Below, piece after piece: positions 51,578 through 61,124 of a stretch of 64,000 nt of DNA (positions are counted from its first letter, which is position 1; every line of letters starts with the position of its first letter). A model generated the notes under the pieces. That model was not told where the DNA came from, searched no databases, and saw nothing but the letters and a program-made list of their open reading frames with translations. The DNA comes from Sporichthya polymorpha DSM 43042 (GTDB lineage: Bacteria > Actinomycetota > Actinomycetes > Sporichthyales > Sporichthyaceae). Location: the NCBI RefSeq assembly GCF_000384115.1, contig NZ_KB913029.1, positions 3,199,057-3,263,056 on the forward strand, read 5' to 3'. Both the position numbers and the translations under genes were made by a program.

Positions 51578-52039
51578 GTGGACGGGCCTGGCCACACCGA
51601 CCATCCGGCGGCGAAGCTGATCGGCGAGACGCTGCTGTCGTTCTCGATGCCGATCGAGCGCGGCAAGGTGCGCGAGTTCGCGCGGGCCACCGGCGCCGAC
51701 GTCGCGCTCTACGACGCCGCGGACGCTCCGATCCCGCCGACGTTCCTGGTCTCCTCGATGCTCTGGGAGCCGGCCGGGGTCTCCCTCGTCGAACGGCTCG
51801 GCCTCGATCTGACGCGCGTGCTGCAGGGCGGCCAGGAGTACCGGTTCCCCGGCGAGCTGCCGCGGGTCGGGGATCACCTCGACATCGACGTCACCGTCGA
51901 GTCCGTGACGTCCAAACCCGGGAAGCGGGGCTCGATGACCTTTCTCGTGCTGCTGACGACGTACCGCCGCGGGGGCGGCATCGTCGCCGAGGGCCGGGCC
52001 ACGGTCATCGAGCGGAGTGCCTCAGGAGTGTCGGAGTGA
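51578..52039 (+). CDS. MaoC-type (FAS1-like dehydratase) protein, subunit A of a hydratase pair
   Basis: 153 aa from GTG after GAGGGGCG. Hot-dog fold of the MaoC_dehydrat_N class: FSMPIERGKVREFARATG at the N-terminus, PIPPTFLVSSMLWEPAG, and VLQGGQEYRFPGELPRVGDHLDIDVTVES. This class lacks the catalytic Asp/His dyad and pairs with a catalytic MaoC. It corresponds to the N-terminal domain of ChsH2 in cholesterol degradation. The stop overlaps the next MaoC start. Confidence 0.87.
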   Translation: MDGPGHTDHPAAKLIGETLLSFSMPIERGKVREFARATGADVALYDAADAPIPPTFLVSSMLWEPAGVSLVERLGLDLTRVLQGGQEYRFPGELPRVGDHLDIDVTVESVTSKPGKRGSMTFLVLLTTYRRGGGIVAEGRATVIERSASGVSE

Positions 52040-52434
52040 AGCCCGGCGACACCCTGCCCGAGCGCACATTCGGCCCGCAGACCCGAACCGACATCGTCCG
52101 CTACCAGGGGGCGAGCGGGGACTTCAACCCCGTCCACCACGACGACGAGTTCGCCCGCGCGGGCGGGCTGCCCGACGCGATCAGCGTCGGCATGCTGCAG
52201 GCGGGTTACCTCGGGACGTACTGCGTCGACCTGTTCGGGCCGACCGCGGTGCGCTCGATTGCCGTCCGTTTCGCCGAGCCGGTCCGGCCCGGCGACGTCC
52301 TCACCTGCGCCGGCACCGTCGCCGACGTCCGGCCCGAGGGCGACGGCCGCGTCGCCGACCTCGACCTGCGAATCACACGCTCCGGCGGCGGGGTCGCCGT
52401 CACCGGTGCCGTGACCGTCCGACTGGAGAACTGA
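52036..52434 (+). CDS. MaoC-type hydratase, catalytic subunit B
   Basis: 132 aa, GTGA overlap with subunit A. The R-hydratase motif is YQGASGDFNPVHHDDEFARAGGLPDAISVGMLQAGYLG, carrying the Asp/His dyad (Asp in GDFNPVHHD and the following His). It is the ChsH1-type catalytic hydratase subunit. With subunit A it hydrates an enoyl-CoA, most likely one with a bulky or alpha-branched group. The stop shares one base with the DUF35 start. Confidence 0.9.
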   Translation: MKPGDTLPERTFGPQTRTDIVRYQGASGDFNPVHHDDEFARAGGLPDAISVGMLQAGYLGTYCVDLFGPTAVRSIAVRFAEPVRPGDVLTCAGTVADVRPEGDGRVADLDLRITRSGGGVAVTGAVTVRLEN

Positions 52435-52829
52435 TGCCCCCACAGATCCCGGCCGTCGCCTACCTGCGAATCGACCCACCCGGCCTCGTCGGCTCGCGCT
52501 GCGCGGACTGCGGCGCGGTGTACCTGCTGGCGCGGATCGCGTGTGCGTCCTGCGGGGGCGCGAACCTGACCGCTGACGTCGAGCTGGCGACCACCGGCAC
52601 CGTCACGACCGCCACCGTCGTGCGCCGCGGGATGCCGGGAGTGCCGACCCCGTTCACCAGCGGCGTCGTCGCGCTCGACGGCGGTGGCTTCGTCCGCTGC
52701 ACGTTGACCGGGGCCGAGGACCCGGTCGCGGTCGTCGGGCGGCGGGCCGCGCTGGAGACCGGTGTGGTCGGGACCGACGTCGCCGGCACGGCGGCCGTCG
52801 GGTTCACGTTCCGGGTGGAGGCGGCATGA
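52434..52829 (+). CDS. DUF35 zinc-ribbon/OB-fold protein
   Basis: 131 aa, TGATG junction with the hydratase. Zinc ribbon CADCGAVYLLARIACASC (about 23-40), then an OB fold (TTGTVTTATVVRRGMP...FVRCTLTGAEDPVAVVGRRAALETGV). In ChsH2 the same domain is the C-terminus of a MaoC protein; here it is a separate gene placed after both MaoC genes and just before the thiolase that it should bind. Confidence 0.88.
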   Translation: MPPQIPAVAYLRIDPPGLVGSRCADCGAVYLLARIACASCGGANLTADVELATTGTVTTATVVRRGMPGVPTPFTSGVVALDGGGFVRCTLTGAEDPVAVVGRRAALETGVVGTDVAGTAAVGFTFRVEAA

Positions 52830-54016
52830 GCGCGCCGATCTGGGTCGTGGGCGCGGACATGACGCGCTTCACCCGGTACGACGATGCGGACGTCGCCACC
52901 CTGGGCGGCACCGCCGCGCGGGGTGCCCTGAGCGACGCCGGGGTGACGATTCACGAGATGCAGTTCGTCGCCGTTGGCAACGTCTTCGAGGCGCTGACGG
53001 GCGTCGGGCAGCGGGTGCTGCACGAGATCGGGATGACGGGCGTGCCGGTCGTCAACGTCGTCAACGCGTGCGCGACGGGGGCGACGGCGGTCCGCGCCGC
53101 GATCGCCGCGATCCGCGCGGGGGAGGCCGACACCGCGCTCGCGGTCGGCGTCGAGCAGCTCGGCAAGCGCGGGCTGCTCGCGGCGCCGGAGGAGCCGCGG
53201 CCGGCCGAGTACACGCCGCGCGGTCGGGACGGTTCGGTGCTCGACACCGAGGGGCTGATCGGCAGTTCGACGATGCCGGCGGTGTTCGCCGAGGCCGGGG
53301 TCGAGTACCTGGCCGCGAACCCGGAGGCGTCGGCCGACCACTTCTTCCGCATCGCGGAGAAGAACCACGCGCACTCGACGCTCAACCCGCTGGCGCAGTA
53401 CCGGAAGCGGTTCAGCTTCGATCAGATCCGTGACGGCGACATGATCGCGTGGCCGAACACCGCGTTGATGTGCTCGCCGACCAGTGACGGCGCGGCCGCG
53501 GTCGTCGTCGTCAACGAGGCCGGGCTCGCGACGCTCGACCCGGGCGTGCGGGCGCGCGCGGTGCGGGTGGCGGCGTCGGTGCTCGTCTCGGACCCGTGGG
53601 TCCCGGACGCCGAGGCGCGGTGGGACGTCAGCACCGTGACGCGGAACGCCGCGGCCGCCGCCTACGAGCAGGCCGGCCTCGGGCCCGAGGACCTCGATCT
53701 CGTCGAGCTCCACGACTGCTTCGCCACCGCGGAGCTGCTGCACTACGAGAACCTGCAGCTCTGCAAACCCGGTGACGCGGTGCGGTTCCTGGAGTCCGGC
53801 GCGCCCTGGCGCGACGGGTCGTTGCCCGTGAACGTCTCCGGGGGCCTGCTGTCCAAGGGTCACCCCCTCGGCGCGACCGGCGTCGCTGGTGTCTACGAGA
53901 TCGTCACCCACCTTCGCGGCGAGGCCGGCGACCGCCAGATCCCCGGCGCTCGCGTCGGCCTCGCCCACGTCCTCGGCCTCGGCAGCGCCTGCGCCGTCCA
54001 CATCCTGCAGAAGTAG
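52826..54016 (+). CDS. SCP-x-type thiolase (acetyl-CoA acyltransferase) with intact Cys
   Basis: 396 aa, ATGA overlap with DUF35. Unlike the protein at 35545 it keeps the thiolase residues: nucleophilic Cys in NVVNACATGATAVRAA (near 76), HDCF in LVELHDCFATAELLHYENLQLC, and GHPLGATGVAG. The terminal GLGSACAVHILQK holds a Cys at the usual second position. It should cleave a 3-ketoacyl-CoA. Together with the two MaoC subunits and the DUF35 it forms a compact hydratase/thiolase cassette. Confidence 0.9.
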   Translation: MSAPIWVVGADMTRFTRYDDADVATLGGTAARGALSDAGVTIHEMQFVAVGNVFEALTGVGQRVLHEIGMTGVPVVNVVNACATGATAVRAAIAAIRAGEADTALAVGVEQLGKRGLLAAPEEPRPAEYTPRGRDGSVLDTEGLIGSSTMPAVFAEAGVEYLAANPEASADHFFRIAEKNHAHSTLNPLAQYRKRFSFDQIRDGDMIAWPNTALMCSPTSDGAAAVVVVNEAGLATLDPGVRARAVRVAASVLVSDPWVPDAEARWDVSTVTRNAAAAAYEQAGLGPEDLDLVELHDCFATAELLHYENLQLCKPGDAVRFLESGAPWRDGSLPVNVSGGLLSKGHPLGATGVAGVYEIVTHLRGEAGDRQIPGARVGLAHVLGLGSACAVHILQK

Positions 54017-54132: not shown

Positions 54133-55602
54133 GTGAAGAGGACGCGCGCGCAGGTGTGGTCGGCGACGGCCGTCGTCTGCTGCCTCGCGTTGCTGCTCGC
54201 CGGCTGCGGGACCCGGCGCACTCATGACGAGCTGAAGACCGCGCTCGTCGACCAGTTCCCGACGGCCGCCGGGAGTCAGCTCGCGCCCGGCGCCGTCACC
54301 GATCCGGGGACCACGCCGGCCCAGCCCCAGCAGCCCGCTGCCCCCGAGGCGCCGGCCCCCGGGGCGACCACCGCGCCCGGTGCCGTCGCCACCACCGCTC
54401 CGGGCACCAACCCGAACGCCGGCGGCCCGAAACCGGCCGCGACGACGAAGGCGCAGCCCGGCGCCGGGGCGACCGGCGGCGGATCGGGCCGACCGTGCAC
54501 CGGTACCGAGAAGCCGATCGTTCTCGGTTCCGTCGGCCAGCAGTCGGGCATCGCCGGCGCGGTCACGATGAACGGCCCGAAGGCCGTGTCGGCGTGGGTG
54601 GCGTCGGTCAACGCGGCCGGTGGTCTGGCGTGCCATCAGGTCCGGTACCTCATCGCGGACGACGGCGGGAGCCCGGCCAAGCACGCCGCGCAGGTTCAGC
54701 AACTCGTCGAGCGCGACGGCGTCATCGCGTTCGTGCAGATGAATCCGGCACTGTCCTGGAGCGGCAGCGAGAAGTACCTCGTGGCCAAGAAGATTCCGGT
54801 GATCGGGACCGACACGTCCTACGACATGGTCTACAACCACCCGAACTTCTTCCCGCAGGCCTCGAGTGGGAAGTACAGCGTGCAGGCCTCGATCGGGGCG
54901 GCGTCGACGAGCTTCAGCCCGGAGGCGAAGGCCAACTTCGGGGTGCTCTCCTGCCAGGAGATCGCGGCCTGCACCTACCTCGCCGACAACGCGAAGAGCC
55001 TCGCCGACTTGTTCGGCCTGACGCTGAAGTACAGCGGGCGCGTGTCGATCACGCAGCCGGACTACACGTCGGTCTGTGTCGCCGCGAAGAACGCCGGGGT
55101 CAAAGGCCTGTTCGTCATCCTCGACGCCAACAGCGTCCACCGGTTCGCCCGCTCGTGCACGTCCGTGCAGTACAAGCCGCAGATCATCACGCCGGGTACG
55201 GGCGTGACGCCGTCGATGACCGGGGACCCCAACCTCGAGGGCTTCTTCCAGTCGCTGATGGTCGCGCCGTTCACCGACCCGTCGATCCCGGGCGTGAAGG
55301 AGATGAAGTCGGTCCTGACGCGGTTCGCGCCGGGTCTCGACCACTCCGGCCAGACCGCGGTCGGCTGGGTGTCGGCCAAGCTCGTCGAGCACGCGTCGCA
55401 GTTCTTCCCGGCCAAGGATTCCTTGACGAGCGCGGACGTCCTCGCCTCCATGTACAGGGTGAAGAACTTCACCGCCGGCGGGATGACAGCGCCCCTGACC
55501 TACACGCAGGGGGAGAACGCCAAGCCGTTCGTGTGCTGGGCCAGCACCACGATCCGCAACGGCGCGTGGGCCACCGCGTCGAAGTGGACGTGCAAGAAGT
55601 GA
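54133..55602 (+). CDS. Branched-chain-type ABC transporter substrate-binding lipoprotein
   Basis: 489 aa from GTG after CGGGAGGCGACACCGGC. Lipobox LLAGC with Cys25, then a Pro/Ala/Thr-rich linker to about residue 120 and a type I periplasmic-binding fold: IVLGSVGQQSGIAGAVTMNGPKAVSAWVASVNAAGGLACHQVRYLIADDGG, AFVQMNPALSWSGSEKYLV, PVIGTDTSYDMVYNHPNFF. Additional Cys pairs (CQEIAAC, CVAAK..., CTSVQ) may form disulfides. Ligands of relatives in such loci include steroid or aromatic acids as well as amino acids. Heads an operon to 61038. Confidence 0.9.
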   Translation: MKRTRAQVWSATAVVCCLALLLAGCGTRRTHDELKTALVDQFPTAAGSQLAPGAVTDPGTTPAQPQQPAAPEAPAPGATTAPGAVATTAPGTNPNAGGPKPAATTKAQPGAGATGGGSGRPCTGTEKPIVLGSVGQQSGIAGAVTMNGPKAVSAWVASVNAAGGLACHQVRYLIADDGGSPAKHAAQVQQLVERDGVIAFVQMNPALSWSGSEKYLVAKKIPVIGTDTSYDMVYNHPNFFPQASSGKYSVQASIGAASTSFSPEAKANFGVLSCQEIAACTYLADNAKSLADLFGLTLKYSGRVSITQPDYTSVCVAAKNAGVKGLFVILDANSVHRFARSCTSVQYKPQIITPGTGVTPSMTGDPNLEGFFQSLMVAPFTDPSIPGVKEMKSVLTRFAPGLDHSGQTAVGWVSAKLVEHASQFFPAKDSLTSADVLASMYRVKNFTAGGMTAPLTYTQGENAKPFVCWASTTIRNGAWATASKWTCKK

Positions 55603-56882
55603 CGGTGCGTCGGCTGGCTGGAGCCCTGCTCGCCGGTGGCCTCCTCGTCGGCGTCGGGACGCAACTGCTGCCGACGGCGGCCGCGGCCACGGCCTCCTTC
55701 GACGGCAGTTCCTCGGCGTACGGGTTGCGGGTCAACGAGTCCATCCCCGGCGCCCCGGGCGCGGACACCGTCCTCGACGGCGGCGGCCCGACGGCGCAGG
55801 CGGCCTTCACCTCGCTGGGCGGCGGCACGGGCTACGCGGCCCTGCCGGACCCGGGCCAGTTCCTCGTCGGCGTCCCCGGCCTCGTCGCCGGACTCGGGCA
55901 GATCAACCAGGAGCTGCCCGAGTACCCGCTCGCGGTGCAGGCGAGCACCACCGACCCGGAGAAGGAGCTCTCCGCCGACGGGTACGCGATCCGTGCCCGG
56001 GTCGGCGAGAACGCCGCGACCTCCTCCGCCGCCGTCGGGGTTGGCCGTGACGCGACCGCGCTGCGCGGGGTCCTGGTGAAGTCCGACGCCTCGGTCTCCC
56101 GACGCGAGGACGGGTCGGTCGTCTCCACCGCGACCTCGATCGTCGAGGGCCTGACGCTCGGCCCCGTCACGATCGGGCGCATCACCTCGACCGCGACGCG
56201 CACCCTGACCGCGGCCGGCAAGCTCGTCTCCGACTCGGACCTGTCGGTCACCAACGTCAGCGTCGCCGGGACGGCGGTCACCTCGCCAACCGGGGCGCCG
56301 GGCGAGGGGACCTCGCCGTTCTCGCTCGGCCCGGCCGTGGACCCGGTGCTCAAGCCGCTCGGCATTTCGCTCATGACGATGGCCGCGCAGGAGGTCGGCG
56401 ACACCGTCGTCGCGCCCGCGCTGATGATCACCGGCAGCTTCCCGGTTGATCCGGCGAATCCGTCGGCGGGCAACGGCACCTACAACCTGATCCTCGGACA
56501 GTCCACCGCGCGGCTGCTCGGCGCGGCCGCGCCGGCCTACGCACCCGGCGCCGGCCAGACACCGGGCAGCGGCGTGACGCCGGGTCAGCTCCCCAGCACG
56601 GACGGTCTGACGCCCGACCTCGGCGGCGCCCCGGGTGCAGTGCCCGGAGCCGTCCCGGGTGCGGTACCTGGCGGCGGCGTCCCGACCGTCCCGCTCGTGC
56701 CCGTCGGTGCGGTGGGGATGTCCGACGCCGACGTCGCCGCCCTGCTCGCCGGGTGGGAAGGCGCGTTCGACATCGGTGGTCTCTACGTGTTCCTCGTGGT
56801 CGCGGGCCTGTCTGCGTTCGTGGTCGCCCAGGGAGTTCGGCTGAGAGGAGTGAGGGCGCCATGGACCTCGTCCGGTGGCTGA
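55599..56882 (+). CDS. Exported, C-terminally membrane-anchored protein of the importer operon, unknown family
   Basis: 427 aa, GTGA overlap with the lipoprotein gene. Signal peptide residues 1-30 (RRLAGALLAGGLLVGVGTQLLPTAAAA). The exported part has many Thr/Ser/Gly/Val strands (GLRVNESIPGAPGADTVLDGGGPTAQA, YPLAVQASTTDPEKELSADGYAIRARVGE), then a Gly/Pro linker with GAVPGAVPGAVP repeats near 345-365, one membrane helix (LYVFLVVAGLSAFVVAQGV) and a short basic tail. It is placed between binding protein and permease genes, so it is probably a cell-envelope component of this transporter. No family recognised. Confidence 0.75.
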   Translation: MTVRRLAGALLAGGLLVGVGTQLLPTAAAATASFDGSSSAYGLRVNESIPGAPGADTVLDGGGPTAQAAFTSLGGGTGYAALPDPGQFLVGVPGLVAGLGQINQELPEYPLAVQASTTDPEKELSADGYAIRARVGENAATSSAAVGVGRDATALRGVLVKSDASVSRREDGSVVSTATSIVEGLTLGPVTIGRITSTATRTLTAAGKLVSDSDLSVTNVSVAGTAVTSPTGAPGEGTSPFSLGPAVDPVLKPLGISLMTMAAQEVGDTVVAPALMITGSFPVDPANPSAGNGTYNLILGQSTARLLGAAAPAYAPGAGQTPGSGVTPGQLPSTDGLTPDLGGAPGAVPGAVPGAVPGGGVPTVPLVPVGAVGMSDADVAALLAGWEGAFDIGGLYVFLVVAGLSAFVVAQGVRLRGVRAPWTSSGG

Positions 56883-57142
56883 GGACCCAGTGGGATCGCG
56901 CGGCCGCGGTCGCGTGCGCGCTGATCGGACTGGTGTCGCTGATCCTCGGCTGGGCCGGTGTCTCCGACGCGACGCTGCCCACCGAGCAGATCCCCTACGT
57001 CGCCTCCGGCGGCCTGTTCGGCATCTTCGCCCTCGGCGTCGCCGGGACGCTGTGGATCTCGGCCGACCTGCGTGACGAGTGGCGCAAGCTGGAGGACATC
57101 CACGCGGACATCCGGGCCGACCTGCGCGCCAAGTGCGAATGA
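56861..57142 (+). CDS. Small two-helix membrane protein of the importer operon
   Basis: 93 aa. ATG at 56861 after GAGAGGAGTGAGG, overlapping the previous gene by 22 bases. Two membrane helices (AAAVACALIGLVSLILGWAGV and YVASGGLFGIFALGVAGTLWI) and a charged helical tail LRDEWRKLEDIHADIRADLRAKCE. The tail has coiled-coil character and a terminal Cys. No family recognised. The ATGA overlap with the next gene argues for production as a unit. Confidence 0.72.
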   Translation: MDLVRWLRTQWDRAAAVACALIGLVSLILGWAGVSDATLPTEQIPYVASGGLFGIFALGVAGTLWISADLRDEWRKLEDIHADIRADLRAKCE

Positions 57143-57612
57143 CGACGGTCGCCGTGGGCACCCGGGCCGCCGTCCGGCGGGCCGCCGACGCCGCACCCGT
57201 GGGCGGGTTGTGGGCGCGGACCGACCTGGCCCTCGTCGTCGGCGCCAACGCCGTCGGGCTCGTGCTGATCGTCACCGGGTGGCTCGGGTCGAGCGACGCC
57301 CTGACGCTGAACGCCGGCGTCGACTGGCTGAAGGTCGGAATCGTCGGCGTCATCTTCGCCGGCGTGTGCAACGGGCTGTTCCTGCTGCGCGGCCGCCGCG
57401 CGGTCGGCCTTGCGCGCCGCGCGGTGCTCGGCGTGCCGCGGGACCGCCGAGCGGTCGTCGTCGAGGACGAGGTCGCTCTCGTCGCACGGCCGGGCAGCCG
57501 GCGCGTCCACCGGCCGGCCTGCCCGATGGTGGCGGGCAAGCCCGTCGAGGCTGTCGCGGCAGCGGGCGAGCTGATTCCGTGTGAGCTCTGCCGGCCGGGG
57601 GTCGCCGGATGA
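57139..57612 (+). CDS. Two-helix membrane protein with a C-terminal His/Cys zinc-like motif
   Basis: 157 aa, ATGA overlap with the previous gene. Two helices (LALVVGANAVGLVLIVTGWLG and WLKVGIVGVIFAGVCNGLFLL), then a basic segment and VHRPACPMVAGKPVEAVAAAGELIPCELCRPG. The H-x3-C...C-x2-C arrangement resembles the Ada-type metal-binding fold seen as a small C-terminal domain in other proteins. It is the second small membrane companion preceding the permease. Role unknown; could hold the complex together or sense metal/redox state. Confidence 0.72.
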   Translation: MTTVAVGTRAAVRRAADAAPVGGLWARTDLALVVGANAVGLVLIVTGWLGSSDALTLNAGVDWLKVGIVGVIFAGVCNGLFLLRGRRAVGLARRAVLGVPRDRRAVVVEDEVALVARPGSRRVHRPACPMVAGKPVEAVAAAGELIPCELCRPGVAG

Positions 57613-59570
57613 GCAGCGTCCTGCCGTTCCTCATCACCGGTCTGGTGACCGGGTCGCTCTACGCCCTCGCCGGCCTCGGCCTGGTGCTGACCTACCGGAC
57701 CTCGGGCGTCTTCAACTTCGGCCACGGCGCGATCGCCGCCGGTGGCGCCTTCTGCTTCTACACGCTGCACACCACGCACGGGATGCCGTGGCCGCCGGCG
57801 ATGGTCCTCACCGTCGCCGCGTTCGCGCTGGTCGGGGGCCCGCTGCTCGAACTGCTGACGCGGTCGCTCGGCGCCGCGCCGGCGGCGATCGGCGTCATCG
57901 TGACGGTGGGTCTGTTCCTCGCCGTCACCGGTGTGCTGAACCAGATCTACGGTGCGACGATCCGGCAGGCGGACCAGTTCCTCCCCGAGGACGGGCCGGC
58001 CGTGTCGGGCGTCGTCATCAGTTACGGCCAGATGATCACCGCGGGCATCGCGCTCGCCGGTGCGGTGGGACTGTTTCTGTTCCTGCGCACCAGCCGTCTC
58101 GGGGTCGCGATGCGCGCGGTGGTCGACAACCCGTCGCTGGTCGGGCTCACCGGACAGACGCCGGCGCGGGTCCGTCGCGTCGCGTGGATGATCGGGTCCG
58201 GCTTCGCGGCGCTCTCCGGCATCCTCCTCGCGCCGGTGCTCGGGCTCGACGCGACGCTGCTGACACTGCTCGTCGTGCAGGCGTTCGGCGGCTGCGCGAT
58301 CGGGCTGTTCAAGAGCCTGCCGATGACCTACGTCGGTGGTCTCGTCGTCGGCGTCGCGGCCGCGCTGGCGACGCGGTTCCTCACCTCGTTCCCGCTGAAC
58401 CAGATCCCGCCGGCGGTGCCGTTCCTGATCCTCATGGCGGTGCTGCTCGTCGTGCCGGTGCGGATGCTGCCGGGGACGCGCACGCTGCCGCAGCCGCTCG
58501 CCTCGGCCGCGCGGCCGCTGAACCCGCGAATGTCCGCCGGTCTCGGGATCGCGGGCCTGGTGTTCCTGCTGCTGGTGCCGGCGCTGGTCGGCTCCCGGCT
58601 GCCGGTGTGGATCGACGCGATGAGCTCGGTCTGCCTCTTCGGCTCGCTCGCGCTGCTGATCTGGACGTCGGGCCAGATGTCGCTGTGCCAGATCACCTTC
58701 GCGGCCCTCGGCGCGACGACGATGGCCCACCTCACCGGCAACGGCGTCCCGTGGGTGCTCGCGCTGCTGCTCGCCGGCCTGTTCACGGTGCCGATCGGCG
58801 CGATCATCGCGATCCCGGCGATCCGCTTCTCCGGCATCTACCTCGCGCTGGTGACCTTCGGCTTCGGCGTCTTCATGCGGTACGTCGTGTACCCGACGTC
58901 CTGGATGTTCGGGCAGGACCTCTCCGCCTCCGCCGAGCGCATGCAGGTCGGGCCGATCGAGGCGCAGACCAGCGAGAAGTGGCACTACTACGTCGCGCTC
59001 ACGGTCGCCGTGCTCACCGTCGCCGCGCTGGTCGCGGTCAACCGCAGTCGGTTCGGCCGCCTGCTCCGCGGCCTGGCGGAGAGCCCCACGATGCTCGGGA
59101 CGCTCGGGCTCGACGTCAACGTCACCCGGCTGCTGCTGTTCTGCGTCTCGGCGTTCTTCGCCGGTGTCGGTGGCGCGCTGATGAGCAGTCAGTACACGGT
59201 CTCGGCGACGAGCTTCAACCCGATCCAGTCGCTGCTGCTGGTCGCGGTGCTCGGCATCTGCGCGATCGCCGGCACCCGCCTGATCCTCACGACGGTCCTG
59301 GCCGCGGTGTTCTTCTCGATCGTGCCCGGGTACGCCACCTCGTTCGACGCCGAGGCGCAGACGCTGGTGTTCGGTGTGCTGGCCGTCGTCGCGGGTCTGA
59401 CGATCGCGAACCGGGACCGCCTGTCGGCCTGGCTCCGGCGCGAGGCCGCCGAGCGGGCGCCGCGGGTTTCGCACGGGCCCGCCGCCGCCCGGGGCAACTG
59501 GACCCCGCCGTGGCCGAGCGCGGCCCGGTCGTCCCAGGAGCGCGAGCTGGTCGGAGGGCGGCGGTCGTGA
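57609..59570 (+). CDS. Fused LivH-LivM branched-chain ABC transporter permease
   Basis: 653 aa with about 17-18 membrane helices. Residues 1-290 are LivH-like (YALAGLGLVLTYRTSGVFNFGHGAIAAGGAF, GVAMRAVVDNPSLVGLTGQTPARVRRVAWMIGSGFAALSGILLAP). Residues from about 310 are LivM-like (LLIWTSGQMSLCQITFAALGATTMAHL, FSGIYLALVTFGFGVFMRY, GRLLRGLAESPTMLGTLGLDVNVTRLLLFCVSAFFAGVGGAL). The two permeases, normally separate, are one chain. Its stop overlaps the LivG start (GTGA). Confidence 0.93.
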   Translation: MSSVLPFLITGLVTGSLYALAGLGLVLTYRTSGVFNFGHGAIAAGGAFCFYTLHTTHGMPWPPAMVLTVAAFALVGGPLLELLTRSLGAAPAAIGVIVTVGLFLAVTGVLNQIYGATIRQADQFLPEDGPAVSGVVISYGQMITAGIALAGAVGLFLFLRTSRLGVAMRAVVDNPSLVGLTGQTPARVRRVAWMIGSGFAALSGILLAPVLGLDATLLTLLVVQAFGGCAIGLFKSLPMTYVGGLVVGVAAALATRFLTSFPLNQIPPAVPFLILMAVLLVVPVRMLPGTRTLPQPLASAARPLNPRMSAGLGIAGLVFLLLVPALVGSRLPVWIDAMSSVCLFGSLALLIWTSGQMSLCQITFAALGATTMAHLTGNGVPWVLALLLAGLFTVPIGAIIAIPAIRFSGIYLALVTFGFGVFMRYVVYPTSWMFGQDLSASAERMQVGPIEAQTSEKWHYYVALTVAVLTVAALVAVNRSRFGRLLRGLAESPTMLGTLGLDVNVTRLLLFCVSAFFAGVGGALMSSQYTVSATSFNPIQSLLLVAVLGICAIAGTRLILTTVLAAVFFSIVPGYATSFDAEAQTLVFGVLAVVAGLTIANRDRLSAWLRREAAERAPRVSHGPAAARGNWTPPWPSAARSSQERELVGGRRS

Positions 59571-60340
59571 GCGGACTGGAGGTCGATCGGCTGCGCATCG
59601 CCTACGGCGGGAACGTCGCCGTCGCCGACGCGACGTTCCGCGCGCCGCTCGGCCGGGTCACCGGGCTGATCGGGCCGAACGGCGCGGGCAAGACGACGAC
59701 GTTCAACGCCGTCAACGGATTGCTGCGCCCCGTCTCCGGGACGGTGCACCTCTTCGGTCGCGACGTCACCCGCGAGTCGGCTGCCGCCCGCGCGCGGGCC
59801 GGCCTGGGGCGGACGTTCCAGCAGGTACAGGTCTGCGCGAACCTGACGGTGCGTGAGAACGTGGCGCTGGGTGCCGAGGTGCGGCTGATCGGACGCAACC
59901 CGGTGCGCCAGTTCCTCGCCGGGGCCGGGCAGCAGCGAGAGGTCCGGCGCCGGACCGAGGAGGCGCTCGCGGCGTGCGGGATCTCCGGTCTCGCCGACAC
60001 CCGCGCGGCGCTGCTGTCCACGGGGCAGCGCCGGCTGCTGGAGCTCGCCCGGGTCCTGGCGGGGGAGTTCCGCCTGCTGCTGCTCGACGAACCATCCTCC
60101 GGCCTCGACGAGTCCGAGACCGAGCGGTTCGGGCAGATCCTGCGCCAGGCGGTCGAGGAGCGCGGAGTCGGGATCCTCATCGTCGAGCACGACATGCCGC
60201 TGGTGATGTCGATCTGCGACCACATCCACGTCCTCGACTTCGGTCAGATGATCTTCGCCGGCACCCCGGCCGAGACGCAGGCCAGTGAGATCGTGCGTCG
60301 CGCGTACCTCGGCGAGGTCGAGACGGCGGGCACGCCATGA
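59567..60340 (+). CDS. Branched-chain-type ABC transporter ATPase (LivG-like)
   Basis: 257 aa, GTGA overlap. Walker A GPNGAGKTTTF at 36-46. The LivG-specific GLGRTFQQVQVCANLTVRENVALG follows. The signature is LLSTGQRRLLELARVL (LSTGQ instead of LSGGQ or LSYGQ), then Walker B LLLLDEPSSGLD and the switch His in IVEHDMPLVMSICDHI. It drives the fused permease together with the LivF-like ATPase. Confidence 0.93.
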   Translation: MSGLEVDRLRIAYGGNVAVADATFRAPLGRVTGLIGPNGAGKTTTFNAVNGLLRPVSGTVHLFGRDVTRESAAARARAGLGRTFQQVQVCANLTVRENVALGAEVRLIGRNPVRQFLAGAGQQREVRRRTEEALAACGISGLADTRAALLSTGQRRLLELARVLAGEFRLLLLDEPSSGLDESETERFGQILRQAVEERGVGILIVEHDMPLVMSICDHIHVLDFGQMIFAGTPAETQASEIVRRAYLGEVETAGTP

Positions 60341-61038
60341 GGTTCGAGCTCCACTCCGTCACCGCCGGGTACGGCGAGACCGTCGCGCTGCGGGAGGCGT
60401 CGCTGGTCGTCCCGTCGGGTCTGGTCGTCGCGCTGCTCGGACCGAACGGCGCCGGCAAGACGACGTTGCTGCGCGTCGCGTCCGGTCTGCTCGCGCCGCG
60501 CTCGGGCCGGCTACTCGTCGACGACCGTGACGTCACCGGTTTCAGCAGCGCCGAGCTCACCCAGGCCGGGCTGTGCCACGTGACCGAGGGGCGCAGTGTG
60601 TTCCCGTCGCTGACCGTCCGCGAGAACCTGCGGATGTTCGCGCGGCCGGGCGAGGAGCGCGAGGCCCTCGACCGTGCCGTCGACGCCTTCCCACGGCTGG
60701 GGGAGCGGCTGGCGCAGATCGCCGGGACGATGTCCGGTGGCGAGCAGCAGATGCTCGCCCTCGCCCGCGCGTACGTGTCCCGCGCGTCGGTGGTGCTGCT
60801 GGACGAGGTCTCGATGGGCCTCGCCCCGATCGTCGTCGACGAGATCTTCGCCTTCCTCGACCGCCTCGTCGCCGACGGCTCCACCAGCCTCCTGCTCGTC
60901 GAGCAGTACGTCACCAAGGCCCTCGCCATCGCCGACCACGTCTACATGCTCGACCGCGGCCGCATCGTCTTCTGCGGCGAACCCGACGAGCTCGACGCCG
61001 ACGCCCTCGCCTCCAGCTACCTCGGCGCCCCGGCCTGA
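60337..61038 (+). CDS. Branched-chain-type ABC transporter ATPase (LivF-like)
   Basis: 233 aa, ATGA overlap with the LivG-like gene. Walker A GPNGAGKTTLL at 35-45. Signature MSGGEQQMLALARA, Walker B VVLLDEVSMGLAPIVVDEIF and switch LLVEQYVTKALAIADHVYMLDRG. LivF-typical ending. The stop is followed in 2 bases by the first of three palindromes, where the operon probably ends. Confidence 0.93.
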   Translation: MRFELHSVTAGYGETVALREASLVVPSGLVVALLGPNGAGKTTLLRVASGLLAPRSGRLLVDDRDVTGFSSAELTQAGLCHVTEGRSVFPSLTVRENLRMFARPGEEREALDRAVDAFPRLGERLAQIAGTMSGGEQQMLALARAYVSRASVVLLDEVSMGLAPIVVDEIFAFLDRLVADGSTSLLLVEQYVTKALAIADHVYMLDRGRIVFCGEPDELDADALASSYLGAPA

Positions 61039-61040
61039 CC

Positions 61041-61124
61041 TGCACTGGAGATGACATCTCTAGTGCATCCCCCTGCACTGGAGATGACATCTCTTGTGCA
61101 CCTGCATAAGAGATGACATCTCCA
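61041..61124. repeat. Three GAGATGACATCTC palindromes after the importer operon
   Basis: Cores GAGATGACATCTC start at 61048, 61081 and 61110 (spacing 33 and 29). Copies 1 and 2 extend to 27 bases with TGCACT or TGCAC arms and matching AGTGCA or GTGCA; copy 3 (61103-61124) has only the inner arms. All have a TGACA centre, as does the related site at 19355. They stand between the importer genes and the promoter of the next operon. Confidence 0.88.

Follow-up and report, generated by a model that had tools for sequence, protein, structure and literature searches.

A standard Liv importer has five parts and is usually drawn with five subunits. LivJ/K-LivHMGF (HAAT) shares with the cassette described here a substrate-binding protein (SBP) of the Peripla_BP_6 family, a BPD_transp_2 permease and LivG/LivF-type ATPases. 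It differs in that the permeases of our cassette are fused, that three extra conserved proteins (B, C and D) are present, and that the scores of our cassette fall under the amino acid equivalog cut-offs. Two further systems, both described in PMC8399759, bear comparison. CamABCD of Rhodococcus jostii RHA1, with four named genes, takes up cholate metabolites; it is, like our cassette, an actinobacterial ABC importer, and its substrates are steroid-derived acids. Mce4, which is likewise actinobacterial and multi-component, is described there as having a role in sterol uptake. Among the matches listed for our seven proteins, with E values up to 1, there was none to the Mce (MlaD) or YrbE families. 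A literature search across listings and the openings of abstracts, together with passages of PMC8399759, PMC13118837 and PMC3924187 and with most subscription papers outside its reach, found no description of the seven-gene set. The machine is of a known kind, Liv-type, but its constant extra subunits would make it a new variation on the Liv importer.

The window, the whole 64,000-nucleotide stretch of Sporichthya polymorpha DSM 43042 that was analysed, carries seven plus-strand genes, A to G, at 54133-61038. All seven reading frames are open and overlap by 4, 22, 4, 4, 4 and 4 bases in turn, which agrees with an earlier note on this DNA, made from the letters alone, that had described an operon with overlapping or nearly overlapping ends. 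A (54133-55602, 489 aa) is an SBP lipoprotein with the lipobox LLAGC, followed by a long low-complexity spacer of about 100 residues rich in Pro, Ala, Gly and Thr and then a Peripla_BP_6 domain (E 4.6e-33, 115.8 bits against a cut-off of 31.7); a PDB sequence search with A returned no match. E (57609-59570, 653 aa) holds two BPD_transp_2 stretches in a single protein and matches both the LivH/UrtB and the LivM/UrtC models, and is therefore a LivH-LivM fusion. F (59567-60340, 257 aa) and G (60337-61038, 233 aa) match ABC_tran above its cut-off and have LivG and LivF, respectively, as their best models, with scores below the equivalog cut-offs (184 of 362 bits and 187.8 of 441). On these family models we assign A as the SBP, E as the permease and F and G as the ATPases of one Liv-type ABC importer. 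The branched-chain-type importer that the earlier note proposed is thus borne out by the Peripla_BP_6, BPD_transp_2 and LivG/LivF models. Its LivH-LivM fusion also stands; a fused permease is ordinary in this group.

Between A and E lie three genes whose products reach the cut-off of no Pfam or NCBIfam family. B (55599-56882), whose GTG start overlaps the stop of A, encodes a 427-residue exported and anchored protein. C (56861-57142, 93 aa) is a two-helix hairpin with a conserved QWDR ... W(L/I)SADLRDEW signature, and D (57139-57612, 157 aa) is a hairpin homologous to C that ends in an HxxxC ... CxxC tail.

The home genome, a single contig of 5.5 Mb, was searched with E and with alignments of B and D; the lengths of the paralogues found are approximate because the start codons in the retrieved loci were picked by script. 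The E search gave 45 rows, 24 of them close (E of 8.7e-113 or lower, the next best being 3.6e-47), while the B alignment gave 25, with 24 strong (E of 5.7e-33 or lower). Each of these 24 E genes has one of the 24 B genes as its partner, no more than about 4 kb away. With the D alignment there were 47 rows, and the 23 strong ones all fall inside 23 of the 24 cassettes and nowhere else; the remainder are made up of C genes and of C-like genes that adjoin other Liv loci. The C profile gave at least 11 scored candidates, a figure not used as a total. A profile scan of the home cassettes found B and E in all 24 and C/D in 23. Recurrence of the set 24 times in one genome is far beyond chance, and we consider it very likely that permease E works together with B, C and D. 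Four distant home Liv loci (L102, L104, L106 and L109) had neither B nor C/D at the thresholds of the profile scan.

The single home cassette without C and D (L094, home contig 1632500-1647500) has a B that is shortened at its C-terminus, covering profile positions 1-333 of 422, and directly adjoins E. It looks like a single deletion that removed the anchor of B together with C and D; the companion set may be dispensable there, or the copy may have decayed. In another cassette (L038, 7598-9205) C and D are merged in a single 301-residue reading frame, and this natural fusion supports physical contact between the two.

The ATPase genes behave differently from the companions. By eye, in stretches of 14-16 kb, 15 of the 24 home cassettes have both LivG and LivF nearby, six have LivF only and three have neither, with L091 counted as having the LivG/LivF pair that it shares with L090. 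B is kept in 24 of 24 and C/D in 23 of 24, even where ATPase genes are missing, so the link of the companions to the permease is closer than that of the ATPase genes. In three permease cassettes (L033, L035 and L039) neither LivG nor LivF occurs within about 7 kb, which suggests ATPases common to several cassettes. The number of SBP genes also varies: L036, L039, L091 and L095 have two or three in a row per cassette, and at L039:9197-15299 three consecutive SBP genes stand behind one permease cassette with no ATPase genes nearby.

Beyond the home genome, a search of named genomes with the C alignment yielded 39 loci. They come from Sporichthya, Acidimicrobiaceae and other Acidimicrobiia MAGs, Frankiales and Frankiaceae MAGs, other Actinomycetota MAGs, Streptomyces antnestii, S. 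jeddahensis, S. sp. CB01635, Actinophytocola MAGs, Haloechinothrix halophila and one MAG labelled Acidobacteria (SM_70_13), whose full cassette (L079) may reflect mis-binning or transfer. Counted by eye, E is present in 36 of the 39, D in 38 and B in 35, with the misses near contig ends. Absence of the companions from orthologous operons had been named beforehand as what would speak against them; B, C and D are present in the orthologues. Chance association was rejected, as none of 20 arbitrarily placed control stretches had B, C, D, C/D or E, and an SBP match occurred in one of the 20. The earlier note's view of the three proteins as distinctive partners thus holds in that they are conserved with the permease, but they are not peculiar to one system, being widespread on actinobacterial Liv permeases.

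C and D had been described as two small two-helix proteins. The two-helix character is confirmed, but they are homologues rather than unrelated proteins (hhalign probability 96). Averaged over the 27 of 34 C proteins in which two helices were called, the number of R and K residues was 2.85 on the N side, 0.30 in the loop and 3.59 on the C side; the corresponding means for D (24 of 34) were 2.21, 1.00 and 4.58. By the positive-inside rule this bias places both ends of C and D in the cytoplasm. The metal-like tail that had been noticed on the 157-residue protein, H124-x3-C128 ... C148-x2-C151, is a conserved feature: the motif occurs in 49 of 51 D sequences from full cassettes, and one of the two misses (L068) is truncated where its stretch stops. 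Among 52 C sequences only the fusion has it. The predicted structure of D has two long helices and a small strand-containing tail, and a structure search with this model gave no match with E of 0.001 or lower. DUF6233 (PF19746) and Ada_Zn_binding (PF02805) show a weak likeness to the HCCC tail, with all scores below the curated cut-offs and no membrane hairpin seen in common. The Ada_Zn_binding match was found in 1 of 24 members at E 0.043, with only the HCCC spacing conserved.

Weak remote matches to C in other families of the class are a single protein with hairpin, linker and HxxxC...CxxC tail, and in an alignment of this one-protein C/D family (A6) the H, C, C and C are invariant in all 15 rows. 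With E of 1e-5 or lower as the limit, the alignment had matches in 39 of the 396 genomes sampled across the phylum and in 88 of the 393 sampled across the class, a few of them tail-only. A Liv permease lies within 4 kb of the one-protein C/D in 71 of 76 loci, and in 53 of 58 independent loci once the 17 discovery loci and a repeat (L189) are dropped. Two of the misses are near contig ends (L132, which keeps LivF and B, and L140) and three are tail-only (L167, L168 and L169). We considered reading the remote matches as a single-copy respiratory protein (7qhm_J against the D profile, E 0.0052), but dropped this because all 17 remote places first checked adjoin Liv genes and the A6 alignment had no PDB match. 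A plasmid collection held no match to a remote C/D protein. The best reading of the seven-gene cassette is therefore an ancestral importer of six genes (A, B, C/D, E, F and G) whose C/D gene was duplicated and split.

Small proteins of this kind, hairpins that have both ends in the cytoplasm and a conserved HCCC site, could also be assembly or stability factors, or a regulator outside the transport cycle that would use its tail as a sensor of zinc or redox state to turn the importer off. That C and D stay with the permease rather than with the ATPases would suit such a role. Tail-less natural C/D proteins (L113, L182-L184, L033 and L034) would suit it too; they indicate that the tail is not essential everywhere. 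We nevertheless think this unlikely, since proteins kept in almost all copies of a 24-fold family look like structural components and not occasional ones.

In the third companion, B, the N-terminus is signal-like, the GAVP repeats lie in a P/A/G-rich stretch and the C-terminal helix is hydrophobic. The earlier description of an exported protein with GAVP repeats and a C-terminal anchor is upheld by these features and by a C-terminal hydrophobic stretch in 48 of 49 B sequences. The AlphaFold2 model (mean pLDDT 72.7, pTM 0.66, 172 residues at 90 or above) is beta-rich at about 34-308, with a disordered P/A/G spacer at 328-391 and a helix at 392-417. Outer-membrane porins, listed by Foldseek with E down to 1.6e-4 but with TM-scores of 0.23 or lower and rmsd of about 15-27 Å, and BtuB (best VIA-align Z 6.5) were not accepted as a fold assignment; the missing fold match carries no information on whether the fold is new. 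The one hit of a PDB sequence search with B, a coat protein at E 0.036, was judged to be chance.

The window B does not match the NF040603 choice-of-anchor P model (cut-off 27 bits), but its relatives resemble that family: 4 of 10 distant ones are above the cut-off, as is one home-genome paralogue (3316676, 28.5 bits), while among nearer members 2 of 30 gave weak matches, the best at E 0.0011. From these profile scores we regard B as distantly related to the choice-of-anchor P proteins, themselves an uncharacterised family.

B might instead be a surface or wall structural protein that merely hitch-hikes in Liv operons. Some C/D-bearing Liv loci are without B, and several permease cassettes outside the home genome have C/D and no detectable B (L110-L112, for example). 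A related, strong choice-of-anchor P domain at home contig 3847497-3848024 (E 1.5e-20) lies away from the listed Liv cassettes. Against this, B pairs with the permease in 24 of 24 home cassettes and is conserved in the named relatives, and its distances track those of E (r 0.88 over 37 cassettes, with 0 of 1000 permutations as high, a correlation expected from linkage alone). After profile iteration B also appears beside many one-protein C/D permeases, including the distant home Liv loci L101, L103, L105 and L108. A mere hitch-hiker is therefore improbable, and B is better seen as a partner of the permease.

The genes around the operon hint at what it carries. Directly upstream of A, on the plus strand at 51578-54016, are a MaoC-like pair, a ChsH2-like DUF35 protein and a thiolase-like protein. 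The window neighbours as a whole include an AMP-binding (CoA-)ligase, two acyl-CoA dehydrogenase pairs, the MaoC pair, a P450 and two ChsH2-like DUF35 plus thiolase pairs, families which we take to resemble those of steroid or terpenoid side-chain catabolism. As judged from gene families, they fit a steroid- or terpenoid-acid catabolic island, which is no proof of the transporter's substrate. Some other cassettes have a P450, ligase or dehydrogenase nearby, which is only a hint. We give even odds to the substrates being hydrophobic acids, with steroid-like compounds our guess from the neighbours. The cassette could instead import ordinary amino acids, amides or urea-like compounds, as the nearest curated models are LivG, LivF, LivH, LivM, UrtB and UrtC. 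We doubt this, because every score is far under those equivalog cut-offs, 24 cassettes in a single genome look like more than amino acids alone would call for, and, as a hint, the neighbours are catabolic.

Taken together, the gene content and its recurrence make it probable that B, C and D do real work in the importer, which would be an ABC importer of a kind not yet characterised. In the model we favour, A and B would have extracytoplasmic domains on long flexible spacers that reach out through the wall, A anchored by its lipid and B by its C-terminal helix. B would serve as a platform for docking or hand-over, on which the substrate, or loaded A, is captured and then presented at E. C and D, with their cytoplasmic ends, would pack against E as a heterodimer, and the zinc-knuckle-like tail of D would lie near the ATPases and fix or gate their coupling. 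The ancestral C/D would have been one protein with hairpin and tail, and its split by duplication in the Sporichthya-type cassette would have given the tail-less C and the tailed D. Multiplication of the cassette with different SBPs would then have produced many uptake specificities, plausibly for steroid- or terpenoid-type carboxylic acids. We put the probability of this whole seven-part model, with SBP A, platform B, C/D subunits, E, F, G and multiplied specificities, at roughly 0.6. The particular division of labour, with B handling substrate on the wall side and C/D as permease subunits reaching the ATPases, is a possibility we hold with some doubt. More tentative still is the broadest form, an Actinomycetota ABC importer architecture of Liv permease, wall-reaching B and C/D metal-knuckle subunit that one lineage has expanded into two dozen hydrophobic-acid importers.

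If the model is right, three orphan genes become parts of a widespread transport machine, and two uncharacterised families, the C/D hairpin-HCCC proteins and the choice-of-anchor P domain, gain a first functional handle. The cassette would also be a test case for how hydrophobic acids enter through the thick actinobacterial wall without Mce proteins, and constant extra membrane subunits would alter the five-subunit picture of Liv-type importers.

Just past the operon the near-palindrome GAGATGACATCTC occurs in three copies, at window positions 61048-61060, 61081-61093 and 61110-61122. It is also found 3' of the orthologous operon in a sister genome (L045). The home genome has 77 exact copies, often paired about 36 bases apart, against 0 for a reversed control, and we class them as a putative dispersed palindromic repeat or operator family.
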